Assembly: GCA_034620365.1 (NCBI GenBank)
Contig: JAQGEQ010000020.1
Coordinates: forward strand, 744,001-808,000
DNA from: Pegea sp. RAD2-039
Lineage: Eukaryota > Chordata > Thaliacea > Salpida > Salpidae
Direction: 5' to 3'
DNA length: 64,000 nt
Shown here one piece after another: positions 18,736 through 30,120 of the stretch; the first letter of the stretch is position 1, and each line of letters starts with the position of its first letter. The notes under the pieces were generated by a model. The model searched no databases, was not told where the DNA came from, and was given only the letters and a program-made list of their open reading frames with translations. The position numbers and the translations under genes were made by a program.

Positions 18736-20164
18736 TGATACAACTTTATAGTTTTTTATTTCTTTAATTAAACATTTTATTGTAAATTAGACTGACAAAT
18801 GGTAAGTGATTTACTAAAACATTAAAATAATTTCTGGTTTTACCCAGATTGTGATGGTTGACTTAAAATACAAAACTTATCTTATAATTTAAATTCTAAT
18901 AAAACATACAAACACGTTTTTGATTTGATAGAATTATTTAAAATAGATTTTTATTTAATTTGTTCCCAAACTTTTATTGAAAATTTGTATTTAATTGAAA
19001 TGGTTTTTATTTATGAAATATCTTTGAAATCATAAATTATATGATAAATAGTCAAAACATATATAAAGAAATTAGTAAAAGTTTATATGAAGCATAAAAT
19101 GTGTTATACTCAAAAGTAAATTGAATACTAAAATCAAATCTTAAACGATAAAATAGAAATTAATAATAAAATCAAAATATATAATTTTAAATTCATTTGA
19201 TAAAATTATGATGATAAAATCAAAAACAAAACATTTCGAAGTGATCTTATAAGATGTTGGAAAAATTTAATAAAAATTAAATATAAAAATTTTCAGAGTT
19301 TTTATAACAAATAACCTCAGGTGAAAAAAGATAAAATATATCTGTTTATTATTTGTTGTAAAATTATTTGATATTTTTATAAAAATTATTTGTATTTATC
19401 ACATTGGATGTATATCTCACTGATATTTCTTAAACTGTTAATAGAAAGTCAGCAAATATATAAGATGAGGATATTTTGTGAAATAAAGAAGGATAAGATT
19501 CGATTTATCAGCAAATTATTAGATTGATATCTCTGGAATAATTTGAAATTAGCTTCTTGAATAGACATCAAAAGGTAAACTAAATAAAAATTGATCTTAT
19601 ACAATGGTGCTCTGTGGAAACTAACTTCAGTTGTTGGTGACAGCAAAATACTCGGACCAAATGACACTTCAAAATATATTTTATTTGGTTATGTGCAAAA
19701 AACCTAAACATTCTCTCAACTTGAATACCTGTGGCTGATTTAATATTAAAAAGTCATCTTACTTCCTAGGAAGAAAACTTAAAAACTGAAGAGATTTAGA
19801 TGATAATGATTCCTAGAATTAAATTTTGAATCTATAGACTCCTTCCTAACAAACTGATTTTAGATTGTAATAATTGAATCATTTAAAGATGAATCTATTC
19901 GAGTATTTTTCAACTAAACCTTAATGAACGAAGCAATTTTATTTGTCGAGTAAAACCTAGATAGAAAACACATTCGTCAACAATTTTGAGGTTTTGTCAG
20001 CTACCCAAACCTTGCTTAGAAAAAATCATAAAAATGACAACAACAAAATATACGTTAAATTACTCTATTCTTGCAAATTAAAAAAGAGAGGAATAGTTAG
20101 CTTCTATCAGCTTCTGGACCTGAAAATTCATTGATGATTAGTGGAAGTCACGTGACGTCAGGCT
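18736..20164. other. Intergenic, A+T-rich
   Basis: Contains the 3' flank of ELYS. A 72-residue minus-strand open frame at 19449-19667 matches nothing I recognise. A perfect TGACGTCA lies at 20153-20160, next to the ELYS stop codon. Confidence 0.45.
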
Positions 20165-23100
20165 TCACCTGTTGCCAGCTTTACGTTTGTCTTTTCTGTT
20201 TGGAGTAATTAATTCTTCAGAAATTAGTTGCAGTTTCTTTGCTGTTGGTTTTGAAACGCGTTTGGGGCGAGGAGAGTCACCAGAAACTTCTTTATCATCT
20301 TCAATGATAGTTTTTAATAACGAGGACCTGACAGGCAGTCTCCGGGACCGACGAGGAGCCACTTCTTCCGTTGAGTCACTGTTACATGAAGTCAAGTTGA
20401 AAAATGGAAAAGTTCAACATCGAGTCATCACCTGGTACTTGATACTTCAGTTGAATCTGGTTTGATGACGTCATCACCCTTCTTGCGACTTCTTCGCGTA
20501 AATGTCGATGTTTCCTACAAATGAAGCTGAAAAGATGCTTGAAAGAAAAGAGATTTCAACCAACCGCTTCATTCTTGTCAAATCGAAGAGAGATCCGTTG
20601 ACTCCTTCTTTTTGAAGGAGTTTTTGGAAGATTTGTAGATTCAGGAAGATCTTTGGACTTCTTTTCTGGTGGTTCATCACTGTTTTTAAATATAGGAGGA
20701 CATAGAAGAGTCGGGAAGTTTGCTGGGGTCTTGAATTGAGATGGGATGAGATTGGAAGTAGGTGGTTTTGTAACTTTGCTACTTTTTCGTTTACATGATT
20801 GCTTTGGAAGTGAAGGAGCTGAAAATTCGAAGCTCAAACCTCGAATATCTAGAAATTAAAGAGATGGGAGTTTGTTCAAGACTTCTTCTTCTTACCGTGA
20901 ACTGTTCGCCTTTTATGATTACGTAATATAGGAGGTGAAAGTGAGAAATGAGGGCTGACGTCATCTCTTCGCAGTCTTTTCTTCGGTTTAACTTCTTCTG
21001 AAACATCAAATCTTGTTGAAATCAGCTGATAGATTTGTTGAAGGAACAAACCTTCTGATGTTGTTGACTTCGATTTACGCAAGCGAGAAGCAATTGGTTG
21101 CTGTGGTGACAAGACAACCAAACCAACATCTTTATCTTCTTTATCTGCATCTTCCTCATCTTCTTTAGCATCTTCATCTTCTTTATCTTCTTCATCTGCA
21201 TCTTCTTTATCTTTGTTTGACTTTTCAATCTTTTTATTTCTCATTTCTTTAATTTTTGACAACTTCAATTTTCTATTTCTTTTTCGAGATCGACACAATT
21301 TTTTTGAACTTTTTTTCACTTCCTTTTCGTCAAGTGAATCTTCAAGACCTTCAGACCTTATGACGCCATCAACTTCTTCTTCTTCATCAGCAGCAGATGT
21401 AATGACGTCATCAACTTCATCCTCATCAGGAAACGTTATGGCGTCATCAACTTTATCTTCAGCAGCAGCAGATGTAATGACGTCATCAACTTTATCTTCA
21501 GCAGCAACAGATGTAATGACGTCATCAACTCTATCTTCAGCAGCAACAGATGTAATGACGTCATCAACTTTATCTTCAGCAGCAACAGATGTAATGACGT
21601 CATCAACTTTATCTTCAGCAGCAACAGATGTAATGACGTCATCAACTTTATCTTCAGCAGCAACAGATGTAATGACGTCATCAACTCTATCTTCAGCAGC
21701 AACAGATGTAATGACGTCATTAACTTTATCTTCATCAGCAGCAGATGTAATGACGTCATCAACTTTATCCTCATCAGCAACAGATGTAATGATGTCATCA
21801 ACTTTATCCTCATCAGCAACAGATGTAATGATGTCATCAACTTTATCCTCAGAAGCAGACATGACTTTATCATCCTCTTCTTCAACTATGACATCGTCTT
21901 CATCTTCAACTATGACATCATCATCTCCTTCTTCAACTATGACATCATCTCCTTCTTCAGTTATGACGTCATCCTCTTCTTCAGCTATGATGTCATCGTC
22001 TCCTTCTTCAGCTATGACGTCATCCTCTTCTTCAGCTATGACGTCATCATCTCCTTGTTCGGCTATGACGTCATCATCTTCTTCAGCTATGACCTCATTG
22101 TCATCTTCAAGTATGACGTCATCATCTCCTTGTTCGGCTATGACGTCATCATCTTCTTCAACTATGACATCATCATCTCCTTCTTCAGTTATGACGTCAT
22201 CCTCTTCTTCAGCTATGATGTCATCGTCTCCTTCTTCAGCTATGACGTCATCCTCTTCTTCAGCTATGACGTCATCATCTCCTTGTTCGGCTATGACGTC
22301 ATCATCTTCTTCAGCTATGACGTCATCCTCTTCTTCAGCTATGACCTCATTGTCATCTTCAAGTATGACGTCATCTTCTTCTTCAGCTATGACTTCATCT
22401 TCTTCTTCGGCTATGACATCGTCTCCTTCTTCTAATATGACGTCATCTCCTTCTTCAACTATGACGTCATCCTCTTCTTCAGCTATGACGTCATCTTCTT
22501 CTTCAGCTATGACGTCATCTTCTTCGGCTATGACATCGTCTCCTTCTTCTAATATGACGTCATCTCCTTCTTCAACTATGACGTCATCCTCTTCTTCGGC
22601 TATGACGTCATCTTCTTCTTCTACTACTATGACATCATCATCTCCTTCTTCAGCTATGACCTCATTGTCATCTTCAACTATGACGTCATCTTCTCCTTCA
22701 TCAACTATGACATCATCATCTTCAGTCATGACATCGTCTCCTTCTTCTACTATGACGTCATCCTCTTCTTCAGCTATGACCTCATTGTCATCTTCAAGTA
22801 TGACGTCATCTCCTTCTTCTACTATGACGTCATCTTCTTCTTCGGCCATGACGTCATCCTCTTCCTCAGTTATGACGTCATCTTCTTCTTCAGCTATGAC
22901 GTCATCATCTTCTTCAGCTATGGCGTCATCTCCTTCTTCAGCTATGGCGTCATCTCCTTCTTCAGCTATGACGTCATCATCTTCCTCAGTTATGACGTCA
23001 TCTCCTTCTTCTACTATGACGTCATCTTCTTCTTCGGCCATGACGTCATCCTCTTCCTCAGTTATGACGTCATCTCCTTCTTCAGCTATGACGTCATCAT

Positions 23101-26100
23101 CTTCTTCAGCTATGACGTCATCTTCTTCTTCGGCCATGACGTCATCCTCTTCCTCAGTTATGACGCCATCTCCTTCTTCAACTATGACGTCATCATCTTC
23201 TTCAGCTATGACATCATCTCCTTCTTCAGCTATGACGTCATCTTCTTCTTCAACTATGACGTCATCTCCTTCTTCAGCTATGACGTCATCATCTTCAGTC
23301 ATGACATCATCATCTCCTTCTTCTACTATGACGTCATCTCCTACTTCAACTATGACGTCATCCTCTTCTTCAACTATGACGTCATCCTCTTCTTCAGCTA
23401 TGACGTCATCTCCTTCTTCAACTATGACATCATCTCCTTCTTCAGCTATGACGTCATCATCTTCTTCAAATATGAGGTCATCTTCTTCTTCAACTATGAC
23501 GTCATCTTCATCTTCAGCTATGACGTCATCCTCTTCTTCAGTAACGACGTCATTGTCATCCTCAGTTATAACATCATCTCCTTCTTCTACTATGACGTCA
23601 TCCTCTTCTTCAGTAATGACGTCACCATCATCTTCTTCAGCTATGACGTTATTTTCTTCTCCAGTTATTTCGTCAACATCTTCTGCTACTACCACGTCAT
23701 CGGTAACTACTTCATCAAGTTCTTCAACAATTTTAATATCTTCTTCTACTGAGTAGTTACTAGGAGCTGCTACGTCATCATTTTGTTGGATGACGTCATC
23801 AGTTTGTTGGATGACATCATCAGTTTGTTGGATGACGTCATCAGTTTGTTGGGTGACGTCATCAGTTTGTTGGGTGACGTCATCAGTTTGTTGGGTGACG
23901 TCATCAGTTTGTTGGATGACATCATCAGTTTGTTGGATGACATCATCAGTTTGTTGGATGACATCATCAGTTTGTTGGATGACATCATCAGTTTGTTGGA
24001 TGACATCATCAGTTTGTTGGATGACATCATCAGTTTGTTGGATGACATCATCAGTTTGTTGGATGACATCATCAGTTTGTTGGATGACGTCATCAGTTTG
24101 TTGGATGACGTCATCAGTTTGTTGGATGACGTCATCAGTTTGTTGGGTGACGTCATCAGTTTGTTGGGTGACGTCATCAGTTTGTTGGGTGACGTCATCA
24201 GTTTGTTGGATGACATCATCAGTTTGTTGGATGACATCATCAGTTTGTTGGGTGACGTCATCAGTTTGTTGGGTGACGTCATCAGTTTGTTGGATGACAT
24301 CATCAGTTTGTTGGATGACATCATCAGTTTGTTGGATGACATCATCAGTTTGTTGGATGACATCATCAGTTTGTTGGATGACGTCATCAGTTTGTTGGAT
24401 GACGTCATCAGAAGCTTTTGTTTCTCTTATGATGTCTACTTCCATATCTTCAACATCTGTTCGTGTGAAATTAAAATCAATTTTTTAAATTAAAAATCTT
24501 CAAAAACCTTTTTCAAATGAAGAGTAGGCATCATGGAAAGATAAATCGTCGCTCACATCAGCTTTACTCTCATCCATGAACTCATCTTCAGCTCTACTCT
24601 CATCCATGAGCTCATCTTCATCTCTACTCTCATCCATGAGCTCATCTTCATCTTTACTCTCATCCATGAGCTCATCTTCATCTTTACTCTCATCCATGAA
24701 CTCATCTCTATTTAAACCAATCGACATCAAACAATCAATTCTATGAAATCAGCCAACCTGTCGTTGGATGTTGCGGAGATTTCTTCATCAAATCGAATCT
24801 TCTTCTTTGTATCTAATCGATCTGTGTCCAACCTCTCTGATTTGTTCATCTCTGTGTAAATATTTGATCTTCGCCTAGAAGAAATTCAGTGAGTGAAAGA
24901 CACAAAACAACATTCACTACTCACAACTTGCTCTTCAGGATCGACTGTGGAGCTTCCGGACTTCGTTTTTGAACCCTTGATAGGACCGGGGTGTGTAGAA
25001 TAGCTTCAACTGATGCTTGTAATTTGCTACAAACAAGTTTTTAAGATTTATGAGATGAAGTTTAGAGTTACAACCTTAAATCTTTCAAAGGGGTCTTCTC
25101 AGCTGGTTTTTCGACTGTTTCTTTCAAAGGGGTCTTTTCAGCATCTCTCTTTTTTTCTGTGTTTCTGAATCTTGCAAATAACTCATCTTTAGACCAAGCA
25201 GACTTGGCAGCAACAGCAGGAACCACGTTCTTGTGGACTAAATAATCAAAAAGATCAGAAGATGAAGATCAGAAGATGAAGATCAGAAGATGAAGATTAG
25301 AAGATGAAGATTAGAAGATGAAGATTAGAAGATGAAGATTAGAAGATGAAGATTAGAAGATGAAGATTAGAAGATGAAGATGAAGATTAGAAGATGAAGA
25401 TTAGAAGATGAAGATTAGAAGATGAAGATTAGAAGATGAAGATTAGAAGATGAAGATTAGAAGATGAAGATTAGAAGATGAAGATTAGAAGATGAAGATT
25501 AGAAGATGAAGATTAGAAGGTGAAGATTAGAAGATAAAGATAAGAAGAAGAAGAAGATCAGAAGGTGAAGATCAGAAGATGAAGACTAGAAGATGAAGAT
25601 TAGAAGATGAAGATTAAAAGATGAAGATTAAAAGATGAAGATTAGAAGATGAAGATCAGAGGATGAAGATTAGAAGATGAAGATTAGAAGATGAAGATTA
25701 TAAGATGAAGATTAGAAGATGAAGATTAGAGGATGAAGATTAGAGGAGGACTTTTCACCTGTCTTATGTGACCTTGTCGAATTAGAATAGTTTTTAATAC
25801 TTGGGATGATAGACGTCAAACACGTGATCAATTTGCTGACGATAAGCCGGCTGGATGTTGAAGACTCATCAGTTGCCTTTACAAGGTAGAATCAGGTGAA
25901 AGAATAAAACGAAGGGGAGAGGATGTTACCCTTTTTCTGATAGTTTGACAACGTTGAAACGCTTCAAACGCTTCTTGATGACGGTAGCGGGTGAGGTGGT
26001 GAAGAATCAACATATCTGACGACTTGGAAGACTTCTCTTCTTGTAAAAACTTACACAAGAGTTTCTGTGGAGATAGGAGTTTGTAGTTGTTAGTAGCAAC

Positions 26101-29100
26101 CAATCACGAGCGTTTACGTCATCTTCCGCTGACAGATCCATCGATAGAAATTGTCGGAAGTTGTTGTTGATGAAGCTGATCTTGAAAAGATACGAGATGA
26201 TCTTCTGATCTTCCAGCTCTTCGGCTTTAGATTTAGCAAGATATAACGCCTCTAAAAATTTCCTATCAACATCCAAGAGATGACAAAGATATTAAGAGAC
26301 ACAGTATAGATCCTCACTTGTTGTCACATAAGATCCGCAGATGGAGTCTAACATCATCCGGCTGCTCACAAGGAGGTCGGAGAACCAACAAGTAACGAAA
26401 AGCGATATCCGCGCGATGACAAGACACAAAAGTGATCAAAAGATGACGATGTTGCCAGTCCACAAGTTGTTCGCTGACTTTACTCTCACATAACTTCTCA
26501 AACGACTCCTGGAAGTCAATGGAGTGAAATACGAGGATCATGTGATCAGTCGGGACATACTTCAAGATAACCGCGATCGAGAAACCAGAAAGCGCGCATC
26601 AACGAAGTAGTCTCTCTAGAAATACCAAAAGTGAAAAGAAAGCTGTTCAGCATCTCCTCCATCTTATTCAAAAACTCTTCATCCTTCTCTTGCTGCTGAA
26701 GATCACAGATATTAGTTTGAAAAATATCCAAGGATCTTCCTACTTCTAAATTCATCTCTATGACGTCAAACAGGAAGTAGAGAACGATGGACTTCTTGGT
26801 GACGTCATCAAGCTTGTTCAAGTAGAAAATGTCGAGAAGAGCCTGAAAGATGTGGAGTTAAAAGATCGCCTGAAGATGATCTGTAGCTTACAATGATGTT
26901 TGGAGGAGGATAACTTGTGTAGTGATGCGAGAACGTCCGCCATCGCTTTATGATGTCATCATGTGACTTCTCGATGACACCATCAATTAGTAACACACAG
27001 CTGGTGTGGTTGCTAAGCAACAAAGAAGTGAGTGCAAGCAGCACGTGACAAGTGACGCGACTTACGAGGTTTGTTTACGTTTGTTGTGAAAGAATTGTTG
27101 AAGACTTGAACTATCATAAAATAAATATTCTTCAATTTGTTCAGTCTTTGATCTTTCAGGCAACAATTTCACTTCAATAAACCAGAATAACATCTGAAAG
27201 AAACATTTGTGGGTGATGTTGGTGGGGTTAGGTAAGATGTACCATGATGTAGTCGACTAGAAGACACACCGCAGTCTTCTTCTCATCTACCAAGTAATGA
27301 TCTTCATGAGTTTGCTCACTCAACATCTAAACACAATCAATTAATTGTCATTTGAAGTTACTACAAGTTGAGTACCTGATAAATGCTGTTTAAATTATTT
27401 AACTTGGAACGGATACTTGATAACTTGGTGAGATTTTCATCGATACAAGAGTTAGATGTTGTGAACACTTCCACACCTGTGATTGTCGAAAGTAAGATTC
27501 AAATGACTCAAGCGTTAAAAGTACTTACAGAAACTGTTCAGTTGGTTTTTAGCTGAACAAACGTTGTCCCATGCCCATGTCAGGACAACTTTCAACACTG
27601 CCTGGGTGTGGACATCATCTTTGTTTTCAAACAAGCCTTCAATGATTCGCTTTAACAAAGTCATCAGGTTGTGTTTGATAGCTGAAAATATTAAAGTTGA
27701 AAATAGAATGAAAATGATGAGAAGACATACCTGCATCAAGAATACCAAACTGTTTATCTTCAGTAGAGGTCGAACGATCTTCTTCTAATAGACCCACAAG
27801 CTTCATTTGCTCATGTGCAGAATCAGGATATATCAATGAATATAAACCCTTCTTAGCTAACAAGTCGATCACCTGTACATCATCAAGTCTTAATATATCG
27901 ATAGTAAAATGATGAATGAAGAACCTGGCGCTGAACACCTTGTATAGAATAGTTAGAAATTTGGTTGGTTTGTAGACAGCATATGTTGAATGAAAGCGAC
28001 GAGGGAAGGGCGAATTGTGGAGGTGTGGGACGTGCCCTGGTATTGAAGGGTTTTAGACTGTCCACACAGGTACATAAAGACTGTAGAAGTAAAATTACTC
28101 GAAATAAATTTATCAAAATTAAATAATAGTCAAACTTACTAGAATTTGTTCCGGGTTGTTTTTAAGGATTGAATTGATGTTTTTCTTTATATAAAAAGAG
28201 TCATGATGATTCCATCTAGAGATCAAATCTAAAGTGAAGAGGAATCCAAAATCGATCTGTAACTTACCTGTAAGTGACAGGCATTTGTGCCATGTACCAA
28301 TTATTAAGATCAAATATAGTTGTAACTACATTGACATGTGATTTCGATTTCTTTTCTACCCACGACAACAAGTAGAAGCTAGCAGTTGGAGAGGTATTTT
28401 CTTCATTAAGTTCAAAGTTTTGAATATTTGAAGTGAAAAGTTCTGTAAGAAGATGTTGAAGAAGTTGCTGAGCAACTAGCAGCTTACCTAGAGTGTCTGA
28501 TTGTATAATTTGAGGTGGAAATATATTAGAATATTCCATGTAGTAACTTAGATTACAACTGTAGAAGTGACGATAATATGAGATGATTTGATCATGATAT
28601 CGTTGCGTTTGTTTAGCTTCAAATACAATTTCATACATCGAAGAAATTAGTTTGTAATTATCATTTGATCTGAAAAGAAAGAAAATTGAAATCTCATCAT
28701 TTTACTCGATGATATCTTACACTTGATCATAATCTTCCATCTCAGCGTTCTTCACAACCCATAAATAACAAACACTTCTTGGATCATTATCAGGTTCTTG
28801 TAGAGAAAACTTGACAACTGGAAGCATGCTGTCTAGCTGACTACTAAATCTGTAAACAGAAAGTGAATTCTTCAAATCATTATTTGATACAAAAATGAAG
28901 ACTTACACTAATGACAAGGTTGTCAGGTCGAACACTTGAAATTGACCAAAAGAGTAACCGACAAATAGAGACAGTGAGCGTTTGTCGAAGTACAAACACG
29001 TGATGGAAACTTCCTGCCGCTGGTATGAGTTTATAACTTCAGAATCAGGTTTAATGTAATTAAATATTTCTCCTTCTGCGGCAGAACCTGGAACTGATCA

Positions 29101-30120
29101 GTGAAATAAGAGATTAGTTTCAAAGATATCAAAATATAAGTCACCTAGCTCAATGGCAATGTGCTCATTGCTCTTATTGAGTTCTTGTCGAGTTTCTAGG
29201 AGTTGAGATTCAGATAACACATCAGTTACAGGTACAATTCTAGTGACTAAAGTACTTGCTGATGTTTCAAGCCTACGATTGAACAAAATCATCAAATTTC
29301 TATTTAAATATTCAGTAATTGATATAAACCTAAGATCTACTAGATACAGGCTTCCACATTTAGTTCCAACTGCTACAATTCCATGTAAATGGTGTAAATT
29401 AGATGAGAGACTCTTACAACAAGATAATTGGACGCAAGTGTCCATAATAGGCTCAAAACTACGAATCTAAAGTAGGAAAATTGGAAAATGATTTATATAA
29501 TGAAGAAAAATAGAAACTTTGAAGGGAACTTACCATATTAGGCATCTCAATATTTTTTAGAACAACTTTTGTTGAATAATTAAAAATATATAAAAGACCA
29601 ATTGTATCATCTACATCAACTGCAACTAAGATTATATTTCCTATTTTCTAAAAGTATAGAAAAAACAAGTTAAGATCTATCTATAAAAAAATGATAATAA
29701 AAATCGATATACCTTACAAGTAACAATTTGAAGGTTTCGATCTGCTGCTACAGATATAAATGAATAGTATAAAAACCTTCTTCCATTTTTTTGATTGAAG
29801 ATATATAACTTCAAGCCATTCGAAATCCAAGCTAGTTTTGCTTCTACAAATAATTTGTAAGTTTAATTGATATTTATCATCTATAAAATTATATTCTAAA
29901 TGATTTACATTTATATGAAATTATTTAAAACCTACTTATTCTGTTTCAAAAATAATTTATATCATATGCATTTAAATACTTAAATGAATATTAAAATTTA
30001 ACAAAACATATTTGTACCTGAATCAAGATAACCCCCTTTGCAATATCCCCCCTCATAAAATGAAGAACTTAAAGGAAGATTGGAAGAAGATATAATGGTT
30101 GGTTCAAAAGAAGTTTCCAT
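20165..30120 (-). CDS. AHCTF1: ELYS/AHCTF1 nuclear pore assembly factor with giant acidic repeat region
   Basis: ELYS binds chromatin, recruits the Nup107-160 complex after mitosis and helps at kinetochores. The ATG is at 30118-30120 and the stop at 20165-20167, with many short introns. The N-terminal beta-propeller exons include GIVAVGTKCGSLYLVDLRF, QEPDNDPRSVCYLW and FDLNNWYMAQMPVTYR; vertebrate ELYS has QEPENDPRNCCYLW and FDINRWYHAQMPDSLR. Alpha-helical exons follow: VVLTWAWDNVCSAKNQLNSF, the CVLLIDGVIEKSHDDIIKRW segment, RAFWFLDRGYLEVCPD and FLQEEKSSKSSDMLILHHL. The C-terminal half has an acidic 10-residue repeat (24.56-24.72 kb). After it comes a single exon, about 24457 to 20897, of over 1,100 residues made mostly of DDVI-based repeats. 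Basic tail exons (about 20838-20560 and 20395-20165) carry KR-rich, AT-hook-like pieces such as RSQRISLRF and APRRSRRLPVRSS, consistent with DNA binding. The repeat block is far larger than anything I know in this family. Identity is firm; exact exon borders are not all resolved. Confidence 0.9.
21370..21860 (-). repeat. 39-bp coding tandem repeat in ELYS (unit DDVITSVAAEDKV)
   Basis: About 13 tandem units of 39 bp encode variants of a 13-residue unit, with A/V, E/D and K/R exchanges. Each unit begins with the palindrome GATGACGTCATC. Units at 21.5-21.7 kb are nearly identical, implying recent homogenisation; edge units are more diverged (for example DDAITFPDEDEV). Confidence 0.95.
21862..23735 (-). 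repeat. 24-bp coding tandem repeat in ELYS (unit DDVIAEEE), about 70 units
   Basis: The plus-strand unit is close to TCTTCTTCAGCTATGACGTC plus ATCC, encoding DDVI followed by AEEE, VEEG, TEED and similar on the minus strand. Unit length wavers between 21 and 27 bp in steps of 3, so the frame is always kept. Longer blocks recur; for example, the string of units at 21950-22150 is repeated at 22190-22380. This indicates duplication of multi-unit segments. Confidence 0.95.
23771..24412 (-). repeat. 21-bp coding tandem repeat in ELYS (unit DDVIQQT), 30 units
   Basis: Thirty units of GATGACGTCATCAGTTTGTTG or one-base variants. On the plus strand, half the units keep GACGTC and half have GACATC. 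Eight of the thirty start GGTGAC, which changes Ile to Thr in the protein. Variants come in runs (eight GACATC units, then three, then three GGTGAC), showing blockwise copying. The array contains no stop in any of several frames on either strand. Confidence 0.97.
24560..24715 (-). repeat. 30-bp coding tandem repeat in ELYS (unit MDESKDEDEL)
   Basis: Five copies of a 10-residue acidic unit (MDES followed by KDEDEL, RDEDEL, RAEDEF and similar) lie in the exon before the DDVI arrays. The unit is unrelated in sequence to DDVI but equally acidic. Confidence 0.9.
25245..25748. repeat. 14-bp minisatellite in an ELYS intron
   Basis: Roughly 35 tandem copies of GATGAAGATTAGAA, with a few degenerate units near 25540-25560. 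The period is not a multiple of three and brings stops into all minus-strand frames, so it is intronic. In the sense of the ELYS transcript each unit reads TTCTAATCTTCATC. Confidence 0.92.

Follow-up and report, generated by a model that had tools for sequence, protein, structure and literature searches.

Coding minisatellites in the last exon of a salp ELYS gene share a palindrome iterated across the genome

How does a gene for ELYS, which in the animals studied initiates post-mitotic pore assembly, come to carry three adjacent tandem arrays of different period in one exon? The question is raised by a stretch of 64,000 nucleotides from Pegea sp. RAD2-039 (assembly GCA_034620365.1, contig JAQGEQ010000020.1, positions 744,001 to 808,000 of the forward strand), called here the window, to which bare coordinates below refer. 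The arrays encode a long acidic block, and many of their units hold one short palindrome, TGACGTCA. Our best explanation, which we consider probable, is that the block consists of last-exon coding minisatellites, each grown from its own founder unit with an iterated palindrome, and expanded by a DNA-level process.

Array positions and periods were obtained with Tandem Repeats Finder. The 39-, 24- and 21-bp arrays are adjacent on the minus strand, inside one open frame of 1,202 codons, and the exon that holds them is the last of the gene:

20879..27681, minus strand: ELYS gene, 3' half, supported by a 15-exon model, matches to solved ELYS and PF13934.
23772..24411, minus strand: 21-bp array of 30 units DDV(I/T)QQT, with exact TGACGTCA in 15 of the 30.
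21870..23684, minus strand: 24-bp array of 75 units resembling DDVIAEEE, with exact TGACGTCA in 47 of the 75.
21360..21857, minus strand: 39-bp array of 12 units resembling DDVITSVAAEDKV, with exact TGACGTCA in 9 of the 12.
20879..21358, minus strand: 160-aa tail after the arrays, with 44 K/R and 34 D/E.

The 3' half of the gene was spliced by hand from the genomic sequence. The result comprises 15 exons and 14 GT-AG introns (13 measuring 48-55 bp, the other 521 bp) and encodes 1,872 aa without a stop. With the repeats removed, the product matches the solved chains 7vci (a 2,408-aa ELYS, 6.9e-37) and 7r5j (a 2,266-aa ELYS, which we take to be human, 1.5e-31). The former is Xenopus ELYS, going by the protein length in the available part of PMC6499780. 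The helical ELYS domain PF13934 is recognized at 1.3e-26 (94.3 bits, above the curated cut-off of 28.8), and the propeller PF16687 in single exons at 3.9e-5 (22.9 bits, under the curated cut-off of 25.8) and 0.1. Other Pfam matches of the repeat exon, to COG3_N and the antifreeze beta roll, were set aside as low-complexity matches. The domain matches fall in the following exons:

26561..26842, minus strand: helical ELYS domain exon, ungapped against solved ELYS, with two single TGACGTCA at 26761 and 26800 (FDVIE, LDDVT).
28267..29466 (28267-28701 and 29101-29466), minus strand: ELYS beta-propeller exons, with weak partial profile matches to PF16687.

A preliminary description of this DNA had placed three side-by-side coding arrays in one exon, and this is borne out by the array positions and the open frame. 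Their location inside ELYS is confirmed by the open spliced model, the matches to solved ELYS and PF13934, and the proposed layout, from helical domain through acidic block to basic tail, agrees with the model, the homology and the residue counts. In the spliced model the tandem units keep the frame within an exon of a genuine gene, so that the arrays are coding minisatellites. A search with the repeat protein was strong only at its own locus and weak elsewhere, the genome having been searched with these repeats and not with the ELYS domain.

The same description held that one palindromic 12-mer starts nearly every unit, and this has to be corrected: the exact 12-mer GATGACGTCATC occurs in only 7 copies, all within the 30 units of the 21-bp array, and it is the shorter TGACGTCA that is found exactly in 71 units. 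Its estimate of about 110 units and about 1,000 mostly acidic residues stands for the residues; from the first to the last core, linkers included, the block has 1,017 residues with 469 D/E and 13 K/R, while the units number about 117 (30 + 75 + 12). In-frame core-like sites were listed 124 times; two of these entries are double calls, and another two lie outside the arrays. GATGACGTCAT or a similar word is followed by C in 30/30 units of the 21-bp array, by A in 68/75 of the 24-bp array and by T in 11/12 of the 39-bp array, and this array-specific base implies that each array spread its own founder unit. Thus the palindrome is indeed common to all three, as had been proposed, but three local expansions, each with its own founder, fit better than the capture of a single core into three kinds of unit.

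Is this palindrome peculiar to ELYS? Genome-wide counts (105.7 Mb, 387 contigs) give 11,048 sites of ATGACGTCAT vs 121 of its mirror, and a palindrome of the same composition, ATGAGCTCAT, has 74. A second palindrome, GTCACGTGAC, has 814 sites vs 9 for its mirror (about 90-fold). In a sample of 260 kb, made up of 20 evenly spaced 10-kb stretches of one contig (C1) and the window minus its arrays, TGACGTCA was seen 41 times vs 1.2 expected from an order-2 Markov model, a 33-fold excess that is not due to chance. Among 8-mers counted at least 20 times over the two strands of this sample together, TGACGTCA is the most over-represented and GTCACGTG/CACGTGAC the second, and all 41 of its sites lie outside tandem arrays. 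The excess also extends to introns, intergenic gaps and other frames, where the palindrome encodes MTS besides DDV.

Alignment of 86 single sites widens the consensus to TGATGACGTCATCA, and beyond 3 bases the flanks come close to background; of 87 sites initially taken, 46 belong to two loci chosen for density (L043 and L044), and one, at the end of a locus, was discarded. The unrelated flanks of these 86 sites rule out a mobile element or satellite as the carrier of the word, which is dispersed and in great excess, as is characteristic of highly iterated palindromes. It is also clustered. No TGACGTCA was found in 10 of the 20 C1 stretches, and 63 of the first 100 ATGACGTCAT sites of C1 lie within 2.00-2.15 Mb (G000:C1:2014525-2143133, about 130 kb). 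This interval contains both dense loci: L043, a tankyrase gene with 17 TGACGTCA in 5 kb, and L044, which encodes a BTB domain (1.3e-14) and has 29 in 2.5 kb in and around the gene, three of which belong to a short array of 36-bp units.

The way in which single sites arise can be seen in conserved exons. The ELYS-domain sites at 26761 and 26800 align ungapped with solved ELYS, DDVT standing opposite DEMS and FDVI opposite LDIM. In the tankyrase gene two sites 33 bases apart in one exon align ungapped with tankyrase-1 (SDVT/ADLA and SDVI/LEII). As neither conserved exon alignment has gaps, these four sites arose by substitution and not by insertion.

Outside ELYS, the palindromes also serve as minisatellite cores. 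We counted triple-core matches, defined as three cores spaced 8-34 bases apart on both strands; these are overlapping matches rather than arrays. Genome-wide, TGACGTCATC gave 1,038 such matches vs 0 for its mirror, and the roughly 100 listed fall into at least 16 loci (grouped by hand, with a few loose clusters) with periods of about 20-42 bp and unrelated spacers. Some palindrome arrays have periods that are not multiples of three, e.g. 22 and 40 bp. For GTCACGTG there were 922 matches vs 0 for its mirror, with at least 7 loci among the matches listed. The second palindrome GTCACGTGAC was likewise observed as the core of unrelated minisatellites, e.g. at loci L048, L049, L052 and L053.

The control words have 56 and 38 single sites per approximately 255 kb, vs 41 for TGACGTCA. 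The control TTGAAACT gave 113 triple matches and its mirror 21, with at least 3 loci among the matches listed; CTTCAACT gave 86 and its mirror 104, with 13 loci overall, two of which are TGACGTCA arrays, including those of ELYS. A weak control, TCATATGA, with 6 copies outside arrays in 255 kb, gave 132 matches and one locus among those listed. By extrapolation, provided that the matches listed are typical, arrays of TGACGTCATC would number about a hundred or more, some ten times those of the controls, which are A+T-richer and less clustered.

Two of the palindrome loci are of interest for comparison with ELYS. At L041:2-2119 an apparently coding frame of 706 aa, rich in SR and in acidic repeats, for which a Pfam search returned no match, combines stretches resembling KDED...QIS with stretches of DDVTNNKR, the latter built on the palindrome. 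Locus L042 has a 21-bp array encoding DDVITSV with frame changes, and looks noncoding.

The palindrome excess, the in-place origin of single sites and the recurrence of the word as the core of unrelated arrays together argue that a DNA-level process acting at the iterated palindrome expanded the ELYS arrays. A possible course of events is as follows. The founder units of the three arrays would each have held the palindrome (consensus TGATGACGTCATCA, core TGACGTCA), which is iterated more than 11,000 times in the genome. The palindrome may be bound by a protein, judging by its sequence a bZIP of the ATF/CREB kind, and the bound site may be prone to breaks or stalled replication. Neighbouring copies would then supply homology, and repair by unequal exchange could produce tandem duplications that expand later. 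In an exon only frame-keeping expansions would survive, and ELYS would thereby have been lengthened by about 1,000 acidic residues, placed between the helical domain and the tail. A broader proposal, which we advance only tentatively, is that the genome has a system of highly iterated palindromes, TGATGACGTCATCA and GTCACGTGAC: a sequence-specific process would place them in genes by base substitution, gather them in certain regions and nucleate minisatellites in those regions, remodelling proteins such as ELYS. On this view the system may mark recombination-active patches directed by proteins of the ATF and USF/MITF types.

Several observations weigh against the role assigned here to the palindromes. 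If arrays grew by exchange between two palindromes, they should start and finish in one, and a palindrome stands at both ends in only 5 of 12; this result is suggestive only, as the 12 arrays were chosen by hand, no indels were allowed and the limits were set after seeing the data. Not every array has the word: the 14- and 30-bp arrays of ELYS have neither palindrome, L016, L021 and L025, which are the large arrays of the C1 sample, are without both, and no array with either word was found in the 200 kb of that sample, so that more than one route to minisatellites exists here, the palindromes being one. The controls are imperfect, the control words being A+T-richer, the mirror of CTTCAACT alone giving as many as 104 matches, and the mirrors of the palindromes having no CpG. 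Single sites cluster in GC-richer patches, which by itself would put copies near one another. Gene conversion should remove a motif that attracts breaks (the hotspot paradox). Finally, the available part of a review (PMC9775316) reports for fission yeast that a full TGACGTCA in ade6 was neither bound nor active and that another showed little breakage.

Two of the large arrays without the palindromes have features of their own. The array of L025 (G000:C1:4900001-4910000), with about 68 units of 21 bp, lies between GTCACGTGAC sites at C1:4900689 and 4903566. At L021:6444-7932 about 50 units of 30 bp were observed, the minus strand of which has long Ser/Thr-rich frames beside leucine-rich-repeat-like sequence.

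What has the expansion meant for the protein? In the 24-bp array the frame is kept, every one of the 75 units having a length divisible by three (59 of 24 bp, 13 of 27 bp and 3 of 21 bp). In the 59 units of exactly 24 bp, to which the neutrality test was confined, 33 distinct substitutions from the consensus were found, 10 synonymous and 23 non-synonymous with no stops, where about 21% synonymous and about 3% stops are expected. The residues of these units look only weakly constrained, with little sign of selection at the protein level beyond the reading frame. The added acidic residues are probably disordered, and we infer, as a part of the best explanation, that the block may be mainly a tolerated spacer between the helical domain and the putative chromatin-binding tail.

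The tail itself is basic, its last 84 residues having 19 K/R and 7 D/E and ending in KRRTVHGKKKKS. RGRP is the core of the AT-hook; a search of the tail sequence for it was negative. When 159 aa of the tail were compared with solved chains, no ELYS was among the matches. According to the available part of PMC6499780, Xenopus ELYS binds the nucleosome acidic patch through an RRK stretch close to its C-terminus.

This last observation lends some appeal to a different reading, compatible with our best explanation, in which selection maintains the acidic block as a working part of the protein, for instance as an internal stand-in for the nucleosome acidic patch, competing for the basic tail, or as a long tether. 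The strong acidity of the block, its place before the basic C-terminus, the unbroken frame of the 24-bp units and the lack of stops among their substitutions all conform to it. Nevertheless, we think it rather doubtful: the 10 synonymous changes of 33, set against the expected fraction, allow weak constraint at most; comparable arrays are found in the unrelated SR-rich frame of L041 and in the apparently noncoding L042; and the DNA words by themselves account for the acidity.

It is somewhat less likely still that the palindromes are selected regulatory sites, the arrays being products of ordinary slippage that happened to catch one. We take both words to look like strong sites for bZIP (ATF/CREB-like) and bHLH-ZIP (USF/MITF-like) proteins, and many single sites lie outside long open frames, as this reading would have it. 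However, sites are also found in conserved coding exons, at densities up to 29 per 2.5 kb, unlike promoters, and the palindromes core arrays more often than control words of equal abundance do.

Very improbable is the reading by which slippage made the arrays and selection for Asp-Asp-Val-Ile gave them their common core as a side effect: the 72 exact copies of TGACGTCA in the repeat exon do all share one frame, but such a bias is expected from the stop (TGA) in the third frame of the palindrome, and the excess holds in introns, intergenic gaps, other frames and arrays of 22 and 40 bp. An assembly artefact, with a satellite misjoined or expanded in ELYS, is equally hard to credit, since long arrays are indeed difficult to assemble, yet the units diverge in a graded manner and the three arrays stay in frame and run into the basic tail within one exon.

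Other features of the locus complete the description:

24551..24707, minus strand: fourth coding array, with 30-bp units DELMDESKDE and without the palindrome, in the exon before the repeat exon.
25238..25758, minus strand: 521-bp ELYS intron holding a 14-bp minisatellite (25251-25744) without the palindrome.
20956..20963, no strand assigned: isolated copy of TGACGTCA in the basic tail (RRDDVS), not part of the arrays.
20153..20473, no strand assigned: TGACGTCA as single copies at 20153 and 20466, shortly downstream of the stop codon of ELYS.

The 14-bp minisatellite fills the sole long intron among the 14 spliced. On the opposite strand an open frame of 904 aa (21042-23756, plus strand), rich in MTSS, results from the palindrome being open in two frames on either strand, and shows that openness alone proves little. 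The region from 20000 to 28000, i.e. the 3' half of ELYS, has a GC content of 0.37-0.42 per 2-kb step, arrays included, vs a background of mostly 0.23-0.34, and 5 of the 7 single TGACGTCA of the window fall in this GC-richer patch.

In the open-licence literature, judged by title, we found neither a dispersed palindrome of such kind in a eukaryote nor an ELYS with such repeats. A dispersed palindrome about 90- to 150-fold over controls in a eukaryotic genome, recurring as the core of unrelated minisatellites, would make it possible to ask directly what starts tandem repeats, and whether DNA instability at sites resembling those of transcription factors, and not selection on the protein, can alter proteins. 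ELYS illustrates this well, as a starter of pore assembly that seemingly tolerates 1,000 extra acidic residues.

The protein described here shares its helical domain with known ELYS/MEL-28/AHCTF1, and it also has a weak propeller match and a basic C-terminus with Arg/Lys clusters. It differs from them in the approximately 1,000 acidic residues that stand as tandem units before the tail, and in a tail with neither RGRP nor a match to solved ELYS tails. Among known minisatellites, unrelated arrays may have a common short core, and coding ones lengthen the protein in frame; what sets the present case apart from those with shared cores is that, within the sample, no single word is more over-represented than the core.

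In fission yeast the bZIP pair Atf1-Pcr1 binds the M26 site ATGACGT, which activates meiotic recombination, as stated in the portion of the review available (PMC9775316), and this heptamer is present on both strands in each of the 11,048 ATGACGTCAT. The resemblance to this CRE-like hotspot is one of sequence, and in the same portion the review reports an inactive full TGACGTCA in fission yeast.

The nearest system in kind is the cyanobacterial HIP1 (GCGATCGC), a short dispersed palindrome in extreme excess, found in coding DNA as well, for which the accessible part of PMC4390886 proposes a ratchet via methylation-directed repair; its author infers there that a gross excess of exceptional sequences need not mean selection. 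The palindromes of Pegea are distinguished from HIP1 by their eukaryotic host, by the CpG at the centre of both TGACGTCA and GTCACGTGAC, by their strong clustering, and by the fact that the same words double as the cores of minisatellites.

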